Assembly (NCBI GenBank): GCA_029256305.1
Contig: JAQSYE010000026.1
Span: 1-33,153, forward strand
Origin: Lacrimispora sp.
GTDB lineage: Bacteria > Bacillota > Clostridia > Lachnospirales > Lachnospiraceae
Direction of reading: 5' to 3'
DNA: 33,153 bases
Shown: positions 6,901 through 8,653 of the stretch, in pieces
How the letters are laid out: each line of letters begins with the position of its first letter
Numbering within the stretch: the stretch's first letter is position 1
Notes under the pieces: model-generated
The model's database searches: none
Told to the model about the DNA's origin: nothing
Seen by the model: only the letters and a program-made list of their open reading frames with translations
Translations under genes and position numbers: made by a program

Positions 6901-7140
6901 TTTTAAAATCAGCTGCTCCACAACCTCTACGGTCAGCGGCTCAATATAAACCTTATCTGCAATATCTTTATCTGTCATGATGGTTGCAGGATTGGAATTT
7001 AATAACACAACTTCAATTCCTTCTTCTTTTAAAGAACGACATGCCTGCGTTCCGGCATAATCAAATTCTGCCGCCTGGCCGATGATAATCGGACCGGATC
7101 CAAGAACTAGTACTTTTTTGATATCCTGATTCTTAGGCAT
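3937..7140 (-). CDS. carB: Carbamoyl-phosphate synthase large subunit
   Basis: A 1067-residue protein, the usual length for CarB (about 1070). It makes carbamoyl phosphate from bicarbonate, ammonia delivered by CarA, and two ATP, feeding both arginine and pyrimidine synthesis. The two homologous halves are plain: each opens with KKVLVLGSGPI-IGQ-EFD (residues ~8 and ~555) and carries an ATP-grasp fold (PAYTMGGSGGG in the first, PSYVLGGQGMQ in the second) with VIEVNPR-SR in both. The last ~130 residues are the MGS-like allosteric domain (FSTAGTAKVL, DLVIDTPPQG). The ATG overlaps the carA end by 8 bp, so the subunits are translated together. No anomalies seen. Confidence 0.98.
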   Translation of the reverse strand: MPKNQDIKKVLVLGSGPIIIGQAAEFDYAGTQACRSLKEEGIEVVLLNSNPATIMTDKDIADKVYIEPLTVEVVEQLILKERPDSVLPTLGGQAGLNLAMELEDRGFFEKNNVRLIGTTALTIKKAEDREMFKETMEKIGEPVAPSDIVENVEDGLRIAEEIGYPIVLRPAYTMGGSGGGIAENSTQCREILENGLRLSRVGQVLVERCISGWKEIEYEVMRDGAGNVITVCNMENLDPVGVHTGDSIVVAPSQTLGDKEYQMLRTSALRIISELGITGGCNVQYALHPESFEYCVIEVNPRVSRSSALASKATGYPIAKVAAKIALGYTLDEIKNAVTKKTYASFEPMLDYCVVKMPRLPFDKFLSAKRTLGTQMKATGEVMSICTNFEGGLMKAIRSLEQNVDSLMSYDFTGLTDDQLTETLHLIDDRRIWVIAEALRRGFTYELIHDITKIDVWFIDKLAILVEMEEALKKGPLTTELLKEAKRLEFPDTVISKLTAISIEEIHQIRKENGITAVYKMVDTCAAEFAAETPYYYSCFGSENEAEQTTGRKKVLVLGSGPIRIGQGIEFDFCSVHSTWSFSKEGYETIIVNNNPETVSTDFDIADKLYFEPLTPEDVESIVDIEKPDGAVVQFGGQTAIKLTEALMKMGVPILGTAAEDVDAAEDRELFDKILEECQIPRPAGQTVFTAEEAKIVAAKLGYPVLVRPSYVLGGQGMQIAISDQDIDEFIAIINQIAQEHPILVDKYIMGKEIEVDAVCDGEDILIPGIMEHIERAGVHSGDSISVYPAQSLNEEIKDKLVEYTRRLARALHVKGMINIQFIVSGEEVYVIEVNPRSSRTVPYISKVTGIPIVPLATRVICGHTIKELGYKPGLQPEADYIAVKMPVFSFEKIRGADINLGPEMKSTGECLGIAKTFNEALYKAFAGSGIKIPKYKNMIITVKDSDKEEIIDIARRFKEQGYKIFSTAGTAKVLNDNGIKAFQVRKLEQESPNLLDLILGHEIDLVIDTPPQGADRSKDGFVIRRNAIETGVTVLTSLDTAAALVTSMENRAKELTLIDIALVKNV

Positions 7141-8260
7141 TCTTTCCCACCTCCATCATGTTTATAAACCGGTCAAATAAGTAGCTGGAATCCTGAGGTC
7201 CCGGACATGCTTCCGGGTGATACTGTACGGTAAATATGTTCTTTCCGGTATATTTCATGCCTTCGTTTGTTCCGTCGTTGACGTTAACAAATGCAGGTAT
7301 TGCCACAGCCGGATCCACAGTATCTTCATCCACCACATATCCGTGGTTCTGAGAAGAGATGTACACTCTTCCGGTTTCTAAATCTTTAACCGGGTGATTG
7401 CCGCCTCTGTGTCCGTATTTCAACTTATGGGTATCTGCACCAGTGGCCAGTGCCATCAGCTGATGCCCCAGGCAGATTGCAAAGATGGGAACTTCTGATT
7501 CATACAGCTTGCGGATTTCCTTAATAATGTCTGTGCATTCCTTGGGATCTCCGGGGCCGTTTGACAGCATAATACCATCGGGGTTAGAAGAGAGAATTAC
7601 TTCTGCCTCCGTATCTGCCGGATATACAGTAACCTCACAGCCTCTCTCATTTAAAGACCGTGCAATATTCTTTTTAGCACCTAAATCTAACAGCGCTACC
7701 CGCTTACCATTACCAGGAAGCACATAAGATTCTTTACAGGTGGTTGCCTTCACAACGCCCGTTACGGAATATGTTTTCATACGCGAAATGACTTCGTCAA
7801 GATCAAATCCTTCATCGGTTGTGATCATGCCGTTCATTGTACCTTTTTCTCTTAAGATTTTTGTTAGGGCTCCGTTCATTGTACCTTTTTCTCTTAAGAT
7901 TTTTGTTAGGGCTCTCGTATCGATACCACTGATACCTGGAATGTCGTTATTTTCTAAGAAATGCTGAATGGTATCCTCGCTTCTAAAGTTGCTGGGGATT
8001 CTAGATAATTCTCTGACAATGTAGCCATCTGGCCAAGGTTTATATGACTCCATATCTTCCTGACAAATGCCGTAATTACCAATTAGCGGATATGTCATCA
8101 CAACTGCCTGTCCCGCATAGGATGGGTCGGTGAGGACTTCTAAATAACCCGTCATGGAAGTATTAAATACGATCTCACTGATCACTTCCCGTTTTGAACC
8201 AATGCTCGTGCCTGTAAAAACAGTGCCGTCTTCCAGTATTAAAAAAGCTTTCATACGCAA
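7133..8260 (-). CDS. carA: Carbamoyl-phosphate synthase small subunit, with a 14-residue internal duplication
   Basis: A 375-residue glutaminase subunit that channels ammonia to CarB. The N-terminal CPSase domain opens KAFLILEDGT-FTG; the C-terminal class I amidotransferase has its nucleophile in FAICLGHQLM and the His/Glu pair in QYHPEACPGP. The odd feature is ALTKILREKGTMNG at residues 117-130 repeated exactly at 131-144; without it the length (361) is normal for Firmicutes. Start choice: AAAGGA lies 8 nt before a TTG (8260) and 14 nt before an ATG two codons later (8254). Family proteins usually begin at the residue of that ATG, so either is possible. A long leader with tandem repeats precedes it. 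Confidence 0.96.
   Translation of the reverse strand: MRMKAFLILEDGTVFTGTSIGSKREVISEIVFNTSMTGYLEVLTDPSYAGQAVVMTYPLIGNYGICQEDMESYKPWPDGYIVRELSRIPSNFRSEDTIQHFLENNDIPGISGIDTRALTKILREKGTMNGALTKILREKGTMNGMITTDEGFDLDEVISRMKTYSVTGVVKATTCKESYVLPGNGKRVALLDLGAKKNIARSLNERGCEVTVYPADTEAEVILSSNPDGIMLSNGPGDPKECTDIIKEIRKLYESEVPIFAICLGHQLMALATGADTHKLKYGHRGGNHPVKDLETGRVYISSQNHGYVVDEDTVDPAVAIPAFVNVNDGTNEGMKYTGKNIFTVQYHPEACPGPQDSSYLFDRFINMMEVGKNA
7830..7913 (-). repeat. Exact 42-bp tandem duplication inside carA
   Basis: Two adjacent identical 42-bp copies, 7830-7871 and 7872-7913, with identity running one base further. The unit is 14 codons, so the frame is kept. Perfect nucleotide identity, including third positions, implies a very recent event or an assembly error. 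Confidence 0.95.
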
Positions 8261-8272
8261 AGTCCCAATCCT

Positions 8273-8427
8273 TTCTTAAAATTTGTCCACGGTTTCTGGA
8301 CATAAAGGGATACCCGAAGGGTGTTTCTTAAAATTTGTCCATGTCTTTTGGACATAGAGGGATACCCGAAGGGTGTTCTTAAAATTTGTCCATGTCTTTT
8401 GGATATAAAGGGATACCCCGAAGGGTT
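8273..8427 (-). repeat. Three tandem ~51-bp hairpin-forming repeats in the carA leader
   Basis: Copies lie at 8273-8324, 8325-8375 and 8376-8427 (52, 51 and 52 bp). In the transcript each reads ACCCTTCGGGTATCCC, then a TGTCCA/TGGACA inverted repeat with a 7-nt loop, then AAATTTTAAGAA. Within a unit, ACCC-TTC-GGGT competes with GGG-TAT-CCC. In the middle copy ATGTC/GACAT also competes with TGTCCA/TGGACA. Copy 3 has an extra G that turns the first hairpin into a UUCG tetraloop, and one mismatch in the second. The copy nearest carA runs straight into its ribosome site. The rest of the gene-free stretch 8261-8653 holds the carA promoter and an AT-rich spacer. Confidence 0.9.
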
Positions 8428-8464
8428 AATTTTGAGCTGACTGTTGTCAGACCAAATTGAATAG

Positions 8465-8493
8465 ATTATACATTATACCGCGACATTTTTCAA
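8465..8493 (-). promoter_or_regulatory. carA promoter
   Basis: Minus strand TTGAAA (8488-8493), 17-bp spacer and TATAAT (8465-8470). The predicted start near 8458 gives a leader of about 200 nt that begins with a CTGAC/GTCAG hairpin and contains all three tandem repeats. Confidence 0.75.
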
Positions 8494-8653
8494 CTGTTTT
8501 TTTATAATTTATTTATCTACTTTTTATACATTATTTCTATTTTTTCAGATATTTTAATCAAGTTGAGTGTATATTTATGCAAAGCAATTAATATTATACA
8601 TTTCCGTATACTTTGCGCCAACTTCGAACAAACTATTCATGAGGTGATAAATC

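Follow-up and report, generated by a model that had tools for sequence, protein, structure and literature searches.

A dispersed miniature repeat at ribosome-binding sites of Lacrimispora and its tandem array in front of carA

The small dispersed repeats of cyanobacteria are very small mobile hairpin repeats that are not known to have a mobiliser; they occur in tandem heptamers and are not known from ribosome-binding sites. BOX elements of Streptococcus pneumoniae, with the order boxA-boxB(n)-boxC, are described as short dispersed hairpin repeats with a tandem module of variable number that alter the expression of downstream genes; the same account gives them terminal inverted repeats, target duplications and an enrichment between convergent genes, where little harm is done (PMC3049150). 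BIMEs are described as REPs in alternating orientation (PMC2817692), and STAB-SD of cry3A in Bacillus thuringiensis as a lone Shine-Dalgarno (SD)-like leader sequence near the 5′ end that binds 30S subunits and blocks RNase J1 (PMC4113751).

We find that a repeat of Lacrimispora is short and dispersed, forms hairpins and has a module repeated in tandem a variable number of times, all as in BOX; unlike BOX, it lacks inverted ends and shows no long duplication, most copies lie in sense at gene starts, and its arrays consist of one module repeated, without the boxA-boxB-boxC order. It resembles REP, REPIN and BIME elements in having about 100 short structured copies per genome, partly in arrays, but its neighbouring units lie on the same strand at strides of 45-76 nt (arrays were grouped by strand, and the match lists show neighbouring units on opposite strands only once, in the weak, overlapping pair G002:1480882/1480915), and the RAYT (HUH) family PF01797 was not found in genomes G014 and G008. 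Like the cyanobacterial repeats it is a small hairpin repeat and very probably mobile; unlike them, it lies mostly at ribosome-binding sites. STAB-SD may be the nearest functional parallel, by analogy, many Lacrimispora units ending in a similar SD-like purine tract; unlike STAB-SD, the Lacrimispora repeat is dispersed and carries hairpins, and 30S docking on it is putative. As an interspersed miniature repeat the element is of a known kind, set apart by its unusual preference for ribosome-binding sites.

The array in front of carA

The window analysed here is a stretch of 33,153 nt from Lacrimispora sp. (contig JAQSYE010000026.1). A tandem array precedes carA on the minus strand at 8272-8426 (TRF: period 52, 3.0 copies, 91% matches, score 252), and a covariance model built from 11 units of the same genome (R1) matches three units in it, with E-values that are genome-scale and not independent, two or three of these units being among the 11 sequences that built the model:

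8465-8493, minus strand: carA promoter as read from the sequence, −35 TTGAAA at 8493-8488, 17-nt spacer, −10 TATAAT at 8470-8465
8379-8427, minus strand: repeat unit 1, promoter-proximal, a variant with an extra G in the first hairpin (H1) and TATCC as 5′ arm of the second (H2); R1, 58.2 bits, E 1.2e-14
8328-8375, minus strand: repeat unit 2; R1, 70.7 bits, E 1.5e-18; stems covary across loci
8374-8371 with 8367-8364, 8363-8355, and 8354-8349 with 8341-8336, minus strand: H1, box and H2 of unit 2
8276-8323, minus strand: repeat unit 3, carA-proximal; R1, 67.6 bits, E 1.3e-17
8262-8283, minus strand: tail of unit 3, AATTTTAAGAAA (8283-8272), then GGATTGGGAC, the presumed carA ribosome-binding region
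7133-8254, minus strand: carA, small subunit of carbamoyl-phosphate synthase, from the ORF list; ATG at 8254; matched in 25/25 genus genomes
7140-3937, minus strand: carB frame, after carA, from the ORF list

The carA unit reads C-ACCC-TTC-GGGT for H1, ATCCCTNTA for the box, TGTCCA-loop-TGGACA for H2 and AATTTTAAGAAA for the tail. The preliminary description of this DNA had placed three near-identical units between a promoter and the carA ribosome site, and the TRF array, the R1 matches and the TTGAAA-17-TATAAT motif, which can likewise be read upstream of carA in relatives, bear this out. It had also recognised no known riboswitch, T-box or PyrR element, in agreement with Rfam searches by cmscan, which return no match at gathering for the whole window and none at E ≤ 1 for 8230-8560. 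Taken over its full 211 nt (8250-8460), the leader folds no better than its shuffles, with z of −1.07 and 31/200 shuffles as good. Within the carA reading frame we observe a perfect 42-bp tandem duplication (window 7830-7914; 14 aa repeated), which is either genome-specific or an assembly error, since the matched CarA stretches in relatives are shorter.

The carA upstream regions of 25 genomes of the genus hold 26 units, spread over 12 genomes with 1-3 in each. Ten genomes of the source's own clade carry 1 to 3 units at carA, G002 (a single-contig relative) carries one unit and the 3′ half of another, and G012 carries one; the 13 genomes of 25 without any unit at carA retain AGAAAGGA shortly before the ATG, as judged by eye. 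Copy number differs between relatives at 95-97% identity in the carA region.

Architecture and distribution of the unit

The unit is ~51-53 nt long and consists, from 5′ to 3′, of a 4-bp hairpin (H1), a box ATMCCTNTATG, a 6-bp hairpin with a loop of ~7 nt (H2) and a purine-rich tail that often has RAGGAAA at its end. Terminal inverted repeats are absent, the unit start CACCCTKCGGGT and the end, mostly RAGGAAA, being not complementary by eye. In the 11 own-genome units the stems vary together, with a covariation score reached by 0/500 shuffles, and the same holds for 105 units (98 distinct) of G002, where 94.6% of cells are paired, 0/500 shuffles reach the covariation score, both sides change in 68 cells versus 18.4 in shuffles, and slid controls give at most 73.6% paired cells and 5 double changes. 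H1 in G002 takes the forms ACCC/GGGT (45), GCCC/GGGC (9), GCCT/AGGC (6), ACCT/AGGT (4) and CCCT/AGGG (3), among others. The G002 set is unbiased; in units from the named loci the 5′ half is largely fixed by the search pattern, so that covariation there is biased on that side. Part of the stem variation across loci may reflect subfamilies that have spread, and two units within the single own-genome smc array differ by a paired H1 change, ACCC/GGGT versus ACAC/GTGT, which together with the covarying stems argues that the element depends on its hairpins, be it in the form of RNA or of single-stranded DNA. Of the competing folds proposed initially, the ACCC/GGGT and TGYCCA/TGGRCA pairings are conserved and GGG-TAT-CCC is not, many G002 boxes reading TATACC and H1 often being GCCC/GGGC or ACCT/AGGT. 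In a longer subfamily, an additional ~24 nt separates H2 from the box (L114 3955-4137; G014 164905, in a 400-kb stretch; G002:1036490, 1341779 and 1583205).

Searched as DNA against its source genome, the carA leader matches six further places, and R1 gives 28 matches at E ≤ 1. Arrays in this genome occupy gaps before genes that we take, from their sequences, to include smc, rnc, clpX, a rhamnulokinase-like gene, ABC permease and ATPase genes, an rsmE-like gene and a proS-like gene. When R1 was run on 61 genomes (the source and 60 relatives) at E ≤ 0.01, all 25 genus genomes were positive, with at least 2 to 103 matches each, as was one of the 36 others, with one weak match; the single-contig G002 has at least 122 matches at E ≤ 0.01, all of these counts being lower bounds from the best 100-150 candidates scored per genome (100 in the 61-genome set). 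Beyond the genus, a family survey of one genome per genus, own included, found at least 20 of 299 positive at E ≤ 1e-4 among the best 20 candidates per genome, and the distribution of the repeat in the family is patchy. The suggestion that a repeat had landed at carA therefore holds, without its species-specific part: the unit is a dispersed repeat, genus-wide and patchy in the family.

In a pattern scan of a genome collection, 71 stretches carry the repeat. Titles name Lacrimispora in 25 of them (xylanisolvens, amygdalina, defluvii and celerecrescens), and the others come from Clostridium sp. Marseille-P2415 and from assemblies labelled Lachnospiraceae, Clostridia, Hungatella, Paenibacillaceae, Enterocloster bolteae, Acetatifactor and others. 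Two L. amygdalina loci (L132, L142) have the same carA leader as the window. The array has no match in the phage collection or the plasmid collection, and a search of non-subscription papers by title and start of abstract yielded no published account of the repeat among the matches listed.

Position at start codons and sites of insertion

Placement was scored against script-called frames, a qualifying frame having an ATG and ≥60 codons, or 40 if open to the stretch end. In G002, where 101 of the 122 matches were grouped into 81 arrays and 75 of these were extracted (6 left out), 71/75 arrays lie in sense within 60 nt of such a frame, at a median of 16 nt from the model end, compared with 10/75 in the antisense control. 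Since internal ATGs are counted too, a background has to be reckoned with: 35% when positions on the gene-rich strand are drawn at random, and as much as 40% when they follow purine motifs. The 71 named stretches gave 193 units, of which the best 150 were aligned and formed 80 arrays; removal of repeats of the same 60-nt downstream sequence and of arrays near a locus end left 56, in which orthologous loci of related species remain. With GTG and TTG allowed, 48/56 of these conform, against 7/56 in antisense. The source genome yielded 15 arrays from its 28 matches, with L057 (contig edge) and L064 (E 0.74) omitted, and 13/15 conform, one of the others being antisense and one cut by a contig end. 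Binomial p at 0.40 is 9e-24 for 71/75, 2e-12 for 48/56, which is too small given the orthologous loci among the named arrays, and 6e-5 for 13/14 in the source genome, where the array cut by the contig end is left out. A census of 3 × 400 kb, which is unbiased, holds 17 arrays at 7 distinct loci and finds an ATG for 14 of the 17; the three misses are one locus whose frame apparently starts GTGAAAAAAACAGCGATTG, i.e. with GTG, by eye. The location of most copies at ribosome-binding sites goes beyond what the preliminary description could see in the window. The sole antisense case among the 15 own-genome arrays (L046) has two units directly upstream of the aroB start.

The distance from model end to ATG is ≤10 nt in 21/71 G002 arrays, which leaves little room for a Shine-Dalgarno sequence outside the element, and an SD motif, typically AGAGGAAA, is present in the tail or the gap of 20 of these 21. 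For at least two of them (G002:2542266, 3949552) translation may in truth start at a later ATG. Operon-internal position is not informative here, with 51/75 G002 arrays versus 41/75 in the antisense control, and a count of 55/75 ‘inside an ORF’ is not meaningful, since units are often stop-free in one frame. Of the 71 downstream proteins 30 were scanned against Pfam, and 29 of these match families, covering metabolism, cell wall, transport, replication, translation and proteolysis, with PGK, Mur ligase, PriA, RlmN, an Era-like GTPase, DapB, AroB, DnaG and ClpP among the matches; with functions so diverse, no functional regulon is apparent. One G002 region (C1:1330319-1344796) has six arrays in 15 kb with a different frame behind each, the Mur ligase, PriA and RlmN families included, a picture that would fit a spread of the repeat through a gene cluster.

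In six filled/empty pairs the repeat has inserted upstream of a gene, within purine-rich sequence, and no long target duplication accompanies it. Three relatives at 95-97% identity (G005, G013 and G014) provide clean pairs in both directions: G005 and G013 have a 51-bp insert where G014 reads GATAATATGGAA directly followed by AGGAAGAGG, and G014 has such an insert where G013 and G005 read GAGGTAGGAA directly followed by AATAAAGG. At least four further pairs come from a wider comparison: clpP, G002:1537674 (its ATG 33 nt away), G002:2701467 and carA of G002. The insert is preceded by GGAA or GAAA in 4/6 pairs; of the other two, clpP has AAGAGA at its left junction and G002:2701467 is without a GGAA/GAAA motif. 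Inserts finish with GGAA(A) or GAAA, after which native sequence resumes towards the start codon, and a 4-5 nt GGAA/GAAA duplication at these junctions is indistinguishable from shared junction sequence.

A long target-site duplication was suggested by CCATTAACAAGGA on both sides of the clpX copy, and one of ~12 nt was rejected because the excess of flank similarity is small and the filled/empty pairs show none. With the 70 of 151 arrays that have a left partial unit set apart, similarity between left flank and tail is 6.27 of 12 own versus 5.70 crossed (0/5000 permutations), a slight excess for which a short target duplication could be the source; arrays with a left partial unit give 8.73 versus 7.1. 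The HUH transposase family PF01797 was likewise rejected as mover: it was not found in 5/25 genus genomes, among them two high-copy ones, G014 (103 matches) and G008 (102), and its presence does not follow copy number. Some copies look decayed by eye (G014 209010; G005:136557 with relatives), so not every copy is under selection.

On an IMG/VR contig (L164 2180-2420) an array overlaps the end of a large serine recombinase frame (PF07508/PF00239), with two more such frames following, and in another assembly (L149 515-663) an array precedes a large serine recombinase gene; the recombinase-linked array has no match in the plasmid collection. One array with near-identical surroundings recurs in five assembly records (L097, L103, L109, L117 and L136), in L117 between a histidine kinase gene and an ABC transporter ATPase gene, which suggests a recently transferred cassette. 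Recombinase-linked or cassette DNA of this sort could be a vehicle for the repeat between species.

Proposed origin and possible effect on translation

We interpret the carA array, with a probability of about 0.6, as a copy, multiplied locally in tandem, of a miniature repeat that is dispersed in Lacrimispora and some other Lachnospiraceae and carries a ribosome-binding site. That the repeat is dispersed, mobile and located at ribosome-binding sites is very probable; that it has spread through ribosome-binding-site homology is plausible, with chances somewhat short of even. Since units mostly begin after, and end with, the RBS-like GGAA(A) or GAAA, short homology may allow them to recombine into further ribosome-binding regions or to be copied there, and such capture would account for the location, the orientation, the tandem growth and the missing long target duplication, with tandem growth proceeding by recombination between units. 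In the mRNA, each unit might offer ribosomes a docking module flanked by hairpins, providing the Shine-Dalgarno sequence or a second one, and perhaps also shielding the 5′ end from RNase J, like STAB-SD. If so, carAB output may drift with copy number, and we see about an even chance that the putative effect of the units on carA translation or mRNA stability is large enough to measure. A bolder version, in which a protein-less 52-nt repeat with SD-like ends as its target specificity spreads from start codon to start codon, builds up tandem copies there and takes over or duplicates the translation start of dozens of genes, carA included, making their levels evolvable by copy number, is tentative and rather doubtful.

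Predicted folding lends modest support to the ribosome-docking account. In 63 of the 75 G002 arrays the core folds better than its shuffles (mean z −1.46), and the start codon is slightly more open with the native core (0.538 versus 0.498 shuffled, p 0.049). SD accessibility is not raised by the unit in these 63 arrays (unpaired 0.581 native versus 0.622 shuffled, p 0.07), and the native core leaves the tail slightly more closed than a shuffled one does (p 0.018). The box pairs with the tail/start region at 2.71 versus 0.91 in shuffles; as this frequent pairing does not covary, we claim no switch. The box as an anti-Shine-Dalgarno lock was considered and dropped, because a unit's own box-tail duplexes are weaker than swapped ones (−3.60 versus −3.90 for 85 G002 units, −3.66 versus −3.95 for 107 named units) and SD access hardly changes. 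A leader peptide from the ATG of the box was set aside by eye, loop length and frame differing among copies.

The repeat could instead be an ordinary non-autonomous transposon, MITE- or REP-like, whose host transposase prefers purine-rich RBS sequence and which has no host function. Copies that are dispersed, tandem and partly decayed, with filled/empty pairs, are consistent with this, as are arrays among or before large serine recombinase genes (L164, L149), a sign that mobile DNA carries the repeat, but the ends are not inverted repeats, long target duplication is missing, PF01797, the family searched, was not found in 5/25 genus genomes, including G014 and G008 with >100 matches each, and the placement is unlike that of BOX, described as enriched between convergent genes (PMC3049150); we think this unlikely. 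A post-transcriptional regulon, in which the unit is bound by a small RNA or an RNA-binding protein that acts at the RBS of many mRNAs, would fit a conserved box flanked by two covarying hairpins at a constant position before start codons, and tandem copies would give avidity. The lack of a common function among the 30 downstream proteins scanned, a locus set that varies between relatives, the decayed look of some copies and the lack of an Rfam match make it distinctly improbable.

Two further accounts concern carA alone. The preliminary description had offered, as one of two readings, a ligand- or protein-binding leader tuning carAB; a sensor of UMP, UTP or arginine made of three repeated aptamers would fit the three units and their position between promoter and carA. 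The same unit also lies at many unrelated loci, however, 13/25 genus genomes have none at carA, no Rfam family matches at E ≤ 1, and the check on related carA leaders came out negative: the leaders alone keep their stems (96.7% of cells paired) with covariation not beyond chance, 231/500 shuffles reaching the observed score. A carA-specific sensor is therefore largely refuted and very improbable. The exact number of units at carA could depend on the assembly, because the source genome is a 319-contig, 82%-complete assembly, and the 42-bp duplication in the carA frame lies nearby. But similar carA arrays occur in nine close relatives, including the single-contig genome G023, which corroborate the unit sequence and its tandem arrangement, and the three units differ among themselves, so that an artefact is refuted for the array and has next to no probability.

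The carA leader is a caution against taking every conspicuous, structured leader that has tandem hairpins for a riboswitch. If our reading of the array as a multiplied copy of an RBS-carrying repeat is correct, a repeat that sits mostly on ribosome-binding sites, many of them of housekeeping genes, and has no transposon ends would represent a new route by which non-coding DNA spreads and rewires translation. Such a repeat makes it testable how repeats that lack transposase ends move, and whether the number of tandem copies sets protein output in natural populations.
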